This document shows, piece after piece, positions 15,428 through 24,242 of a DNA stretch of 64,000 nucleotides. A program made the translations under genes and the position numbers. The stretch lies in contig JAJZIM010000008.1 of assembly GCA_021810565.1 (NCBI GenBank), forward strand, positions 1 to 64,000. Direction: 5' to 3'. The stretch is from Bacillota bacterium (GTDB lineage Bacteria; Bacillota; Sulfobacillia; JAJZIM01). The notes beneath the pieces were generated by a model. That model did no database searches. It was not told the origin of the DNA and saw only the letters and a program-made list of their open reading frames with translations. Each line of letters starts with the position of its first letter. Position 1 is the first letter of the stretch.

Positions 15428-15610
15428 CCTAAATACAACATCCCATGCAAATATCACAATGTTTGTCATTCAGGCAGGAATTACGCCAAAGTGATGGAAC
15501 ATATACTAAAAGCCCATGAGCGATGGGCACCCCGGCGGGTCATCGAGGAGGCTCGACCCGATCTCGCCCCGCCGGCGGCACAAACTTCGCGAGATCGGGA
15601 TGGGGGATGA
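15428..15610 (+). CDS. Small 60-aa ORF with CX5C...HX4H motif, stop overlaps rhodanese start (leader ORF candidate)
   Basis: MPKYNIPCKYHNVCHSGRNYAKVMEHILKAHERW...RPDLAPPAAQTSRDRDGG*; TGA 15608-15610 overlaps ATG 15607. Confidence 0.4.
   Translation, partial: PKYNIPCKYHNVCHSGRNYAKVMEHILKAHERWAPRRVIEEARPDLAPPAAQTSRDRDGG
15557..15599 (+). promoter_or_regulatory. Stem-loop upstream of rhodanese lipoprotein 1 (copy 1)
   Basis: CCCGATCTCG (15557-15566) pairs with CGAGATCGGG (15590-15599); followed by G-rich SD and ATG. Confidence 0.6.
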
Positions 15611-16206
15611 TGATGAAGAAGCTTCCCGGATCGTGGTCCCTGCCGGCCCTGGTGGCCGCCGCCGCGCTCCTAGCCGGGTGCGGCGTTCCGCCGAGCGCCA
15701 CCACCCCCGCCGCTCCGGCCAAGGCCAGCACCGCTGCGGTGCAGAAGGCCGTCGTGCAGCGGGTGGACACCTACTTCGCCAACGAGGCGAAGGCGCCGTT
15801 GGGCGGCAGCTACCAGATCAGCACCGCGGCGCTGTACAAGGCCCTGCAGAAGAACCCGAACCAGTTCCTGCTGCTGGACGTGCGCATGCCCTCCGGCCCG
15901 GCGACCGCCCCCGGCTACGCGCAGGGCCATATCGGCGGAGCGGTCAACGTGCCCTACCCCGACTTGGCCAAGAACCTGAACAAGATCAAGAAGCTGGACC
16001 AGGGCCGTCCCATCGTGACCATCTGCTACACCGGCCAGTGGGCCAATCAGTCGGAGGCGATCCTGCGTCTTTTGGGCTACAACGCTTACGCCCTCCATCT
16101 TTCCATGAGCGACTGGAACCAGAAGACCGACATCCTGCCCCCGAAGCACACGGTGCCCAACTATCCCCTGGTAACGGGGACCAAGCCGGGCACCTTCAAG
16201 CCTTAG
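15607..16206 (+). CDS. Secreted rhodanese-like lipoprotein (copy 1)
   Basis: Lipobox LLAGC; rhodanese-like LLLDVRMPS...GHIGGAVNVPYP...IVTICYTGQWANQSEAILRLLGYNAYALHLSMSDWN. Confidence 0.85.
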   Translation: MMMKKLPGSWSLPALVAAAALLAGCGVPPSATTPAAPAKASTAAVQKAVVQRVDTYFANEAKAPLGGSYQISTAALYKALQKNPNQFLLLDVRMPSGPATAPGYAQGHIGGAVNVPYPDLAKNLNKIKKLDQGRPIVTICYTGQWANQSEAILRLLGYNAYALHLSMSDWNQKTDILPPKHTVPNYPLVTGTKPGTFKP

Positions 16207-16992: not shown

Positions 16993-17592
16993 ATGAAGAT
17001 CAAGAGAACAATGGTTCTCCCTGCGCTATTGGCGGCGGCAGCCCTCTTGGCCAGTTGCGGCCCTCCCCCCGCCGTCGCGCCCTCCGCCCCCGCCCAGCCC
17101 AGCTCGGCAGCGGTGCAGACGGCCATCGCCCAGCGGGTCGAGTCCTACTACAACCACGCCTTCGACAACAAGACCATGGCCACCTACCAGATCACCACCA
17201 AGCAACTGTACGGTGATCTGAAAGCCGACCCGAGCAAGTACTTTCTGGTGGACGTGCGCAAACCCAAGAACACCGTCAACTTCGGCATAACCGCTTATGG
17301 ATACGACGGCAACCACATCCCCGGCGCGGTCAGCATCCCCTACGGCCCCGCGGTGGCCAAGGCCATCGCCGACAACGCGATCCCCAAGGACAAGACCATC
17401 GTCACCATCTGCTATACCGGGCAGTGGGCCAACCAGACGGCGGCGCTCCTGCGCCTATTGGGCTACCACGCCTACGCCCTGCACCTGTCCATGAGCGACT
17501 GGAACCAGAAGACCGACGTCCTGCCCCCGAAGCACACGGTGCCCAACTATCCCCTGGTTACGGGGACCAAGCCGGGCACCTTCAAGCCTTAA
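16993..17592 (+). CDS. Secreted rhodanese-like lipoprotein (copy 2)
   Basis: Lipobox LLASC; YFLVDVRKPKN...IVTICYTGQWANQTAALLRLLGYHAYALHLSMSDWNQKTDVLPPKHTVPNYPLVTGTKPGTFKP. Confidence 0.85.
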   Translation: MKIKRTMVLPALLAAAALLASCGPPPAVAPSAPAQPSSAAVQTAIAQRVESYYNHAFDNKTMATYQITTKQLYGDLKADPSKYFLVDVRKPKNTVNFGITAYGYDGNHIPGAVSIPYGPAVAKAIADNAIPKDKTIVTICYTGQWANQTAALLRLLGYHAYALHLSMSDWNQKTDVLPPKHTVPNYPLVTGTKPGTFKP

Positions 17593-21519: not shown

Positions 21520-22194
21520 TTAACCTCCCACTTGGAAAGTGCATTCGGCCGTACGCAGGCCCAGGAAACGCCCGGCGGGGCTGTGGAAGCGCACCCCGAC
21601 CCGGGCCGTGTGGCTGCCCGGGGAGGCGGAGCCCAGGCTCACCTGCCACCGCACGGTGCCGCCGGGAGGAAGGACCAGGCCGCCGGCGCCGGCCGGCACC
21701 GTCCGGGCCACCGTCCGCACCGCCGGCGGGTAGGGCCGCACCTCCACCGGGATGCGGCTCTCGTTGCGGATTTCCAAGGTCAGTCGCACCGCCTCTTTGG
21801 GAGCGAAGACCGCCCGGGCGGGAACCAGCCGCACCGACCAGGGCCCCCGGACCGGCGCAAAGGTGGCCTGGGCCCGCGGGGCCGCGACGGGCGCCCTCGG
21901 GGAGGCGGCCGGACCCGGCGCGGTCACCGGCCGGGGAAAAAGGAGCACGGCCGCGGCTGCGGCGGCCGCCAGGCCCAAGATCCACGGCGCGGGATGCGGG
22001 CGGCGCCGCGGGACAGGCGCTCCCAGGCGCCGGGCTAGCTGCCGCGCCAGCCGGTCCGGCACGGCCGGATCCACCGGTTCCCGCCCCAGCCGGCGGCAAT
22101 GATCGGCCAGTCGGCTCAAGGCCACCAGCTCCTCGTCCGGCGTCCCTCGCCCCTGGAGCGCCTCCTCCAGCTGATCACCGCGCGATTTCCTCAA
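21520..22194 (-). CDS. Single-TM putative anti-sigma factor with Ig/BsuPI-like extracytoplasmic domain
   Basis: Immediately downstream of and overlapping the sigma factor gene; TM ILGLAAAAAAAVLLF; beta-rich C-terminus. Confidence 0.6.
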   Translation of the reverse strand: MRKSRGDQLEEALQGRGTPDEELVALSRLADHCRRLGREPVDPAVPDRLARQLARRLGAPVPRRRPHPAPWILGLAAAAAAAVLLFPRPVTAPGPAASPRAPVAAPRAQATFAPVRGPWSVRLVPARAVFAPKEAVRLTLEIRNESRIPVEVRPYPPAVRTVARTVPAGAGGLVLPPGGTVRWQVSLGSASPGSHTARVGVRFHSPAGRFLGLRTAECTFQVGG

Positions 22195-22730
22195 CGGCCG
22201 TCACCTTTCCCTTCCAGGATCCGCCGCAAGGCCTTGAGGCCGCGGTACTGCAGGGAGCGCACCGCCGGGGCCGCGCATCCCAGGATCCTGGCCGTGTCCT
22301 CCACGGAGCGCTCCTCCCAAAAGCGCAGGGTGAGCACGCGGCGCTGCTGGTCGGTCAGCCGCGCCAGGGCCTCGAGCAGCTCCTCGCGCTCCTCCCGCCG
22401 GTACGCCTCCTCCTCGGGGGAGGGATCGGCATCGGCCGGATCCTCGTCCAGGGGAACCGCCGGGCGTCGCCGGCGCCAGTCGGAGACCGCCAGGTTGCGC
22501 GCCACCCGGAGCAGCACCCCCACCAGGGGGACGCCCCGCTCCCGAAAGGAGGGCAGAACGGGCAGCACCCGCGCGTACACCTCCTGGGTCAGGTCCTCCG
22601 CCAGGGACGCATCGCCCACCCGGTGCCGCAGGTAGCGGTACACCGGCTGCCAGGTGCTGCGGCAAAGCTCCTCCAGGGCCGCGCGGTCTCCTCCCGCGGC
22701 GCGGGCCGCGAGACGCCAGTCCCCCTCCAA
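22191..22730 (-). CDS. RNA polymerase ECF-type sigma factor
   Basis: YRYLRHRVGDASLAEDLTQEVYARVLPVL...QQRRVLTLRFWEERSVEDTARILGCAAPAVRSLQYRGLKALRR. Confidence 0.92.
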   Translation of the reverse strand: MEGDWRLAARAAGGDRAALEELCRSTWQPVYRYLRHRVGDASLAEDLTQEVYARVLPVLPSFRERGVPLVGVLLRVARNLAVSDWRRRRPAVPLDEDPADADPSPEEEAYRREEREELLEALARLTDQQRRVLTLRFWEERSVEDTARILGCAAPAVRSLQYRGLKALRRILEGKGDGR

Positions 22731-22808: not shown

Positions 22809-23138
22809 TTAATCCGAGGCTCCGACCGCCTCTTCCCGCGGCCAGCGCTCTCCCCAATGCCGGATGGCGTCGATGACCTCCCCCAGGGTCTCCCCCTTGC
22901 GGGTGAGCCGGTAGACCACCCGCACCGGCACCTCGGCGTACACGGTGCGGGACAGGATCCCCTCCTCCTCCAGCTCCCGCAGCCTCAGGGCCAGGGTCTT
23001 GGGACTGACCTCCCCCAGGGAGCGGCGAAGCTCCCCGAAGCGGCGCGGCCCCTGCAGCAGGTCCCGCAGGATCAGGATGGTCCACTTCCCGCCGATGATC
23101 TTCAGCGCCCGCTCCACGGGACACCCGTTCCCGCCCAA
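22809..23138 (-). CDS. HxlR family transcriptional regulator
   Basis: CPVERALKIIGGKWTILILRDLLQGPRRFGELRRSLGEVSPKTLALRLRELEEEGILSRTVY. Confidence 0.92.
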   Translation of the reverse strand: MGGNGCPVERALKIIGGKWTILILRDLLQGPRRFGELRRSLGEVSPKTLALRLRELEEEGILSRTVYAEVPVRVVYRLTRKGETLGEVIDAIRHWGERWPREEAVGASD

Positions 23139-23197
23139 CTGGCCCGCCCCCTCTCACGGCTTCCCTTTTGGAAACCTGCTTTCATGAATGTGCCTAC

Positions 23198-23227
23198 TTC
23201 ACACAGTATAGCACCCTGGGGTATAAT
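23198..23227 (+). promoter_or_regulatory. Putative promoter of the miniprotein gene
   Basis: TTCACA-18 nt-TATAAT, 23 nt upstream of the ATG. Confidence 0.65.
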
Positions 23228-23250
23228 CCGGCAAGAGGGAGGTGAACCAG

Positions 23251-23406
23251 ATGTACGTTTGCGCCTTTTGCGGCCGCACCTCCGAGGAGAAGGAGCTGTG
23301 CTGCGGCCACTGGATGGCTCCCGAGGGTAGCTATGTGTGCAAGTCCTGCGGCAATGTCTCCGACCAGTCGGGGGAGTGCTGCGGACAGCCCATGGTGCGG
23401 GTCTGA
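23251..23406 (+). CDS. 51-aa tandem desulforedoxin-like / zinc-ribbon miniprotein
   Basis: MYVCAFCGRTSEEKELCCGHWMAPEGSYVCKSCGNVSDQSGECCGQPMVRV*; SD GGGAGGTGA; two repeats of YVCxxCG-x8-CCGxxM. Not in the ORF track. Confidence 0.8.
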   Translation: MYVCAFCGRTSEEKELCCGHWMAPEGSYVCKSCGNVSDQSGECCGQPMVRV

Positions 23407-23462
23407 ACGGCGGGGGGCCTGACGGCCCCCTTCCCCTATCCCGGAAAGGACGGTGCCATCTA

Positions 23463-24242
23463 ATGAGCCTCACCCGCGCCCTTGTGGTCCCCCACGTTCC
23501 CACCCTGCTGATGGAGGAGGCCGCGGGCCGGGAGGGAGCCGTGGTGCGCGCCCTGCGTCGCACCGGGGAGACCCTGCGAGGCGAGGGGGTCACCCTGGCC
23601 GTGGTGGCCACCACCCACTGGCAGCCCTCCGGCCCCTTCCTGGTCGACCCCACGGCGCGCCACCCCACCGTGACGGATTTCTACGGCTTTCCCGTGGAGC
23701 TCGCCTACGATCCCCCGGGAGAGCCCGCCCTGGCCCGAAAGTTGGTGGAGGCCGGGCAGGCGGTCGGGTTGCCGGTGGAAGAGGGATCCCACGGCGCCGA
23801 CCACGGCGTCACCGTGCCGCTGCATTTCCTCTTCCCGGCGGCGGATGTGCCCACGGTCATCCTCTCCGTCTCCCGCCGCGACCTGGGGGAGTGCCGATGG
23901 TGGGGCGAGGCGGTGGCGAGGGTTCTGGCGGCGGACCCGCGCGGCGCGGCGCTTTTGATCAGCGGCTGCCTGGCCCACGACCTGGCCGCCTTCCGGGCCG
24001 GACGGAGCGCCGACACCGAGCGCTTCGACGCCGCCGTGCTGGACCTCTTGCGCGGGGGACACTTCGAGCAGCTGGAGTCATTGAACCCGGAGCTGGTGTC
24101 CTTGGGCCGGCCCGAGGGGGAGCTGCGGGACCTGGCCTTGCTCGGCGGCGCCCTGGGCGGTGGGGCGCGAGGCGATCTCTTGGCCTACGACGGATCGCTG
24201 CCGGGAGTGGGCATGGCCGTGGTGGAGTTCTCGCCCGGATAG
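23463..24242 (+). CDS. Class III extradiol dioxygenase (LigB/DODA-like)
   Basis: VVPHVPTLL...VVATTHWQPSGPFLVD...VTDFYGFPVELAYDPPGEPALARKL...GADHGVTVPLHFLFPAADVPTVILSVS. Confidence 0.85.
   Translation: MSLTRALVVPHVPTLLMEEAAGREGAVVRALRRTGETLRGEGVTLAVVATTHWQPSGPFLVDPTARHPTVTDFYGFPVELAYDPPGEPALARKLVEAGQAVGLPVEEGSHGADHGVTVPLHFLFPAADVPTVILSVSRRDLGECRWWGEAVARVLAADPRGAALLISGCLAHDLAAFRAGRSADTERFDAAVLDLLRGGHFEQLESLNPELVSLGRPEGELRDLALLGGALGGGARGDLLAYDGSLPGVGMAVVEFSPG

Follow-up and report, generated by a model that had tools for sequence, protein, structure and literature searches.

Does a cysteine-rich open reading frame of 51 codons in the window, the whole 64,000-nucleotide stretch of Bacillota DNA analysed here, encode a working protein, and what might that protein do? 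The frame is a genuine gene, as an earlier note on this DNA had proposed, with relatives in other genomes at E-values down to 7e-13. Its product, MYVCAFCGRTSEEKELCCGHWMAPEGSYVCKSCGNVSDQSGECCGQPMVRV, has 8 Cys per 51 residues and is read from an ATG at 23251 to a TGA stop at 23404-23406; this ATG is the likely start because a GTG at 23242 falls within the Shine-Dalgarno sequence. A chance ORF or a decayed gene might be suspected of any short ORF where high GC content goes with many spurious ones, but relatives at 7e-13, a conserved ligand pattern, a near-perfect Shine-Dalgarno sequence (found in nearly all family members), and low dN/dS (about 0.05-0.25 between close pairs within the family) leave that reading a negligible probability, and it was ruled out by conservation and dN/dS. 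The features of the locus are collected in Table 1.

Table 1. Features in and around the miniprotein gene, in window coordinates.
Feature	Position	Strand	Basis or remark
HxlR-family regulator, RrpB/HypR/YodB-like	22809..23138	-	Pfam E 8e-32
Palindrome TACT-N6-AGTA, putative HxlR operator over the -35 of the miniprotein promoter	23195..23208	.	Pattern search
Sigma-A-type promoter TTCACA-18-TATAAT	23198..23227	+	Promoter scan
Weaker divergent promoter TTGCCG-18-TATACT towards HxlR	23205..23234	-	Promoter scan
Shine-Dalgarno GGAGGTGA	23238..23245	+	Almost unchanged in nearly every family member
Miniprotein CDS, 51 aa, tandem short-loop desulforedoxin-like	23251..23406	+	Translation, relatives, conservation
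Repeat 1 YVCAFCGRTSEEKELCCGHWM, predicted metal site 1: Cys4, Cys7, Cys17, Cys18	23254..23316	+	Sequence and family alignment
Repeat 2 YVCKSCGNVSDQSGECCGQPM, predicted metal site 2: Cys30, Cys33, Cys43, Cys44	23332..23394	+	Sequence, alignment, profile comparison
GC-rich hairpin between miniprotein and LigB, no U-tract	23412..23431	+	Attenuator candidate; no more stable than expected by chance
LigB-type class III extradiol dioxygenase	23463..24242	+	Pfam/NCBIfam scans; start 56 bp past miniprotein stop

Each repeat of the miniprotein reads YVC-x2-CG-x8-CCG-x2-M, and both match C-x2-C-x9-CC-G-x2-M. The description of the repeats as near-perfect holds for this pattern, to which both units conform, but not for their sequence, with 10 of 21 residues common to the two 21-residue units. 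Two C-x2-C-x9-CC sites appeared in 4 of 200,000 shuffles of the protein's own residues. The window protein departs from its relatives in two respects: repeat 1 has EKE ahead of the last two ligands of site 1, where the other members carry an [LI]P[DG] motif, and its net charge of -2 places it among the few acidic members of a mostly basic family (median +3).

Profile-profile comparison upholds the proposed relationship to desulforedoxin. In hhalign, the two repeats match each other at 98.5% and the desulfoferrodoxin N-domain (PF06397) at 92.9% and 94.7%, versus 11-31% for a rubredoxin-type control (PF21349, two CxxC knuckles); with at most 31% in this comparison, a rubredoxin-type relationship was rejected. 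Seven of 21 weak family-profile matches also coincide in place with desulfoferrodoxin domains. AlphaFold models of the window protein (pLDDT 93.2) and of another member, L009 (85.4), were each built from only four sequences, and the model of the miniprotein has no helix. A fold search of the PDB gave desulforedoxin as the first match for both models, although the E-values of 0.43 and 1.2 make this weak match support rather than proof; the six best matches of the window model were all desulforedoxin or desulfoferrodoxin, at E-values of 0.4 or worse. PDB matches to eukaryotic C2H2 fingers were set aside as reflecting repeated Cys knuckles and not homology.

Neither its spacing nor its score qualifies the miniprotein for PF06397 in the strict sense. 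Desulforedoxin sites described in the literature are CX2CX15CC (PMC3116461), and the loop is 15 residues long in all of 28 desulfoferrodoxin domains from Bacillota, whereas nine residues separate CxxC from CC in both sites of every family member, so the shortened loop described earlier is real. The window protein scores 15.6 bits against PF06397, for which the curated cut-off is 23. The miniprotein shares with the PF06397 domain the YxCxxCG...CCGxxM signature, a profile-profile match of 93-95%, and, weakly, the top fold match, but differs in its loop, in carrying two domains per chain, in lacking a superoxide reductase domain, and in allowing His in site 1. The designation as a tandem short-loop desulforedoxin-like protein is supported, and the protein would work like a pair of desulforedoxin-type metal knuckles; the desulforedoxin-type unit can evidently tolerate a loop six residues shorter and occur in tandem. 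The single-chain pseudo-dimer pictured in the earlier note would be a conjectural arrangement of the two repeats. The archaeal zinc microproteins of the HVO_2753 type (PF07754) likewise fit two predicted metal pockets into a very short chain, one of them metal-free in HVO_2753 (PMC11241148), but they use four C(P)xCG motifs, and the miniprotein family gives only sub-threshold PF07754 matches.

The gene belongs to an unannotated conserved family outside Pfam and NCBIfam, no family of which reaches its cut-off for these proteins; single members score just as well, below cut-off, against several unrelated zinc-ribbon models. Tandem members were found with profile A1 (E 7e-13 or better) in 36 of 399 sampled Bacillota genomes, window genome included, at one copy each, which adds a widely distributed family of small proteins. 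The window's own class has them in 4 of 154 genomes by profile search, and a whole-genome search found relatives in three same-class genomes (E 7e-13 to 1.5e-10). A contig scan added relatives in three Bacillota MAGs, two of which are Thermincola, along with single-repeat relatives on two Elusimicrobia contigs (L010:428-556 and L011) and one further Firmicutes contig; the single-repeat unit occurs in only 1 of 200 Elusimicrobia genomes. Two loci, L092 and L093, keep repeat 1 alone, and an unrelated polar tail replaces the second half. A phage, plasmid, or viral origin of the miniprotein was also considered and dropped, with no matches found.

The family set comprised 39 distinct tandem members, aligned in 37 rows with window numbering. 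Cys4, 7, 17, 30, 33, 43, and 44 are invariant in this alignment, and position 18 is Cys or His. The earlier note would have abandoned the protein had homologues been missing, an objection that fails because relatives with a conserved ligand pattern exist, seven of the eight Cys being invariant and the eighth Cys or His. No operon partner is conserved across taxonomic families at the loci examined, and a conserved operon was discounted on the same ground: neighbours include GPI with PrkA, YugP, a LytS-type kinase, a glycerate kinase, or an FlhB-like gene, depending on the taxonomic family (apart from GPI and the zinc peptidase, the names rest on reading of the sequences). A conserved hypothetical protein of ~125 aa lies just upstream of the family gene at eight loci in four taxonomic families (L065, L068, L073, L075, L078, L080, L086, and L088); the one copy scanned had no Pfam match.

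The metal of the miniprotein is most likely zinc. Among the 39 distinct members, 12, all within two taxonomic families, have His as the fourth ligand of site 1. This favours zinc there, as a Cys-to-His ligand change is easier to reconcile with zinc than with rubredoxin-type iron. These histidines count against the redox role that had been suggested for the protein, as does the lack of co-occurrence with desulfoferrodoxin genes, found in 13 of 36 genomes with the family versus 160 of 363 without it (p=0.38; 399 Bacillota genomes). A superoxide-reductase partner was rejected on the same comparison, and PF06397 proteins are absent from the window's genome.

Upstream regions point to sporulation. 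The Bacillus subtilis sigma-F consensus is GYATA-N14-16-GGNNANANTR, and matches of 10/11 or better were counted in 39 family upstreams and in 155 upstreams of other genes from the same loci. Such matches occur in 13 of 39 family upstreams versus 3 of 155 neighbouring-gene upstreams, with a p-value of 5e-8 that is optimistic because related genomes are not independent; 0.85 matches would be expected from dinucleotide shuffles, the reverse strand gives 1, and 200 permuted motifs give at most 3. At 9 or better, the counts are 25 of 39 versus 27 of 155. Of fifteen taxonomic families, six contain members with the pattern at 10 or better. Among the three control matches, two lie upstream of SpoIIR-like proteins, and the one scanned passes the NCBIfam SpoIIR cut-off; since spoIIR is a known sigma-F target (PMC3789822), the scan finds true sites. 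Family upstreams show no enrichment of sigma-A, E, K, or H patterns and a moderate excess of a sigma-B-like one (9 vs 2.3), whose -10 (GGGWAT) overlaps the sigma-F -10 in form.

Taxonomic families are not uniform in this respect. The family labelled f85 has no sigma-F pattern, its gene lying 15-20 bp behind another gene, and f68 and f127 fit only partly. A conserved CATGMTA element in f68 suggests a sigma-G or mixed site, and sigma-F and sigma-G recognition overlap in Clostridioides difficile (PMC7438776). The miniprotein family is probably mainly sporulation-linked, with forespore expression read from the sigma-F-type motif, and its proteins are predicted to form part of the forespore programme. 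For the window's organism itself, the one pointer to sporulation capacity is a CwlD-like amidase that scores below its cut-off.

The window copy is controlled differently. The family-wide upstream scan found no sigma-F-type motif before it; its own promoter and Shine-Dalgarno sequence, both described earlier, are present, the promoter scoring 11/12 against consensus, and two promoter-like sites fall in the upstream region where shuffles average 0.0. The gene is also divergent from an HxlR regulator, as had been observed, whose closest relatives of known structure include YybR, YodB, and HxlR and which has a single cysteine, Cys6. A palindrome of the kind found beside the regulator in YodB/CatR-type units, TACTTCACACAGTA, spans the miniprotein -35 plus part of the -10 of the divergent promoter. 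TACTN6AGTA has three sites in the 3.18 Mb genome, only this one adjoining an HxlR gene, and a reversed control of the pattern has 26. Besides this regulator, just one HxlR-family gene was found in the window genome, outside the window (G000 contig C68:70556-70831, L017); it is divergent from a short ORF resembling a TusA-type sulfur carrier, and the intergenic region is without TACTN6AGTA.

A comparable arrangement is known from Bacillus subtilis, in which the extradiol dioxygenase operon catDE is regulated by YodB and CatR (PMC6212828), and Cys6 of YodB reacts with quinones (PMC8063818). An HxlR/DUF24-family regulator with Cys6, an extradiol dioxygenase, and a TACT...AGTA palindrome are common to both, but the window regulator is divergent from the miniprotein and a LigB-type enzyme, the spacer is 6 bases versus about 7 in the YodB operator according to a review (PMC8063818), and catDE encodes no such miniprotein. 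The LigB-type enzyme is rare in the window's class (2 of 154 genomes at E 1e-30), and neither HxlR nor LigB was noticed adjoining the family gene at other loci examined. The window gene would be read from a sigma-A promoter with its -35 inside an HxlR-type operator, upstream of the dioxygenase, and would be induced when HxlR Cys6 meets electrophiles, quinones, or oxidants. Binding of HxlR to the palindrome is expected from these likenesses, and the miniprotein may be co-transcribed with LigB, which is uncertain because the GC hairpin without a U-tract separates the genes. Such control seems peculiar to the window genome, since elsewhere the family mostly has sigma-F-type promoters, and the window copy may be a developmental gene that has passed to the control of a redox regulator.

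As a whole, these observations are best explained by a zinc double-knuckle metalloprotein, chiefly made in the forespore and binding a partner, with the window copy under HxlR-type redox control, an account that is somewhat likelier to be right than wrong. Two tandem short-loop desulforedoxin-like knuckles, each C-x2-C-x9-C-[C/H], would each hold one metal ion, most likely structural zinc; across Bacillota, the family would be made chiefly in the developing spore from a sigma-F-type promoter; and the metal-stabilised surface would contact proteins or nucleic acids as CsfB and Fin do, not as a superoxide reductase partner. Partner binding as molecular function is suggested by analogy. CsfB and Fin are small zinc proteins that regulate sigma factors in the forespore (PMC5890618), and they resemble the miniprotein family in size, in zinc binding (predicted for the family), and in their sigma-F-type promoter. 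The comparison is an analogy only, because CsfB is a CxxC...CxxC treble clef with a C-terminal helix, whereas the miniprotein has a different ligand pattern and a helix-free model; Pfam scans of the miniprotein family gave no Gin (CsfB) or Fin family match. More tentative is the full scenario of a forespore family with tandem short-loop zinc sites under sigma-F and a CsfB/Fin-like role in spore development, one lineage's copy of which was recruited into an aromatic or quinone stress unit under HxlR control.

Other roles fit part of the evidence. The iron electron carrier envisaged by the earlier note, with Fe(SCys)4 in each site as in desulforedoxin and electrons shuttled in oxidative or electrophile stress, would suit the closest known domain, the adjacent CC ligands of site 2 (kept in all but one member), and the HxlR-type redox regulator beside the window copy; it is doubtful given the Cys-to-His change in 12 members, the missing co-occurrence with desulfoferrodoxin, the lack of a conserved redox partner gene nearby, and family promoters that look sporulation-specific rather than stress-specific. 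Strictly fixed spacing and a confident predicted fold favour defined sites over a flexible metal or thiol buffer, which makes it rather unlikely that the protein is laid down in the spore core for zinc storage or oxidation protection at germination, a use to which 8 Cys and a sigma-F-type promoter would lend themselves. A narrow form of the preferred zinc-protein account, in which the product, made under sigma-F, sets the timing of the sigma switch by binding a sporulation sigma factor as CsfB and Fin do, draws on the sigma-F-type promoter, small size, predicted metal site, and mostly basic charge, but is unlikely in view of the treble clef and helix of CsfB, which the family's ligand pattern and AlphaFold model do not share. 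Least probable of these roles is a local reactivator in the window genome. The small ferredoxin XylT re-reduces the iron of catechol 2,3-dioxygenase, and xylT lies upstream of xylE; the miniprotein is similarly placed before LigB on the same strand, 56 bp apart, and the regulator family matches catDE control, but the role requires an Fe site, a GC hairpin intervenes, and no other tandem member examined adjoins a dioxygenase.

Two further groups of genes in the window deserve mention. On the minus strand, 21520-22730 encodes an ECF sigma factor (22191-22730) and, immediately after it, a possible cognate anti-sigma factor with what looks like a single membrane segment. On the plus strand, 15523-16206 and 16993-17592 are two neighbouring, clearly related lipoprotein-like ORFs, the second without an NCBIfam match, which share a rhodanese-like stretch, VTICYTGQWANQ, and have identical C-termini.
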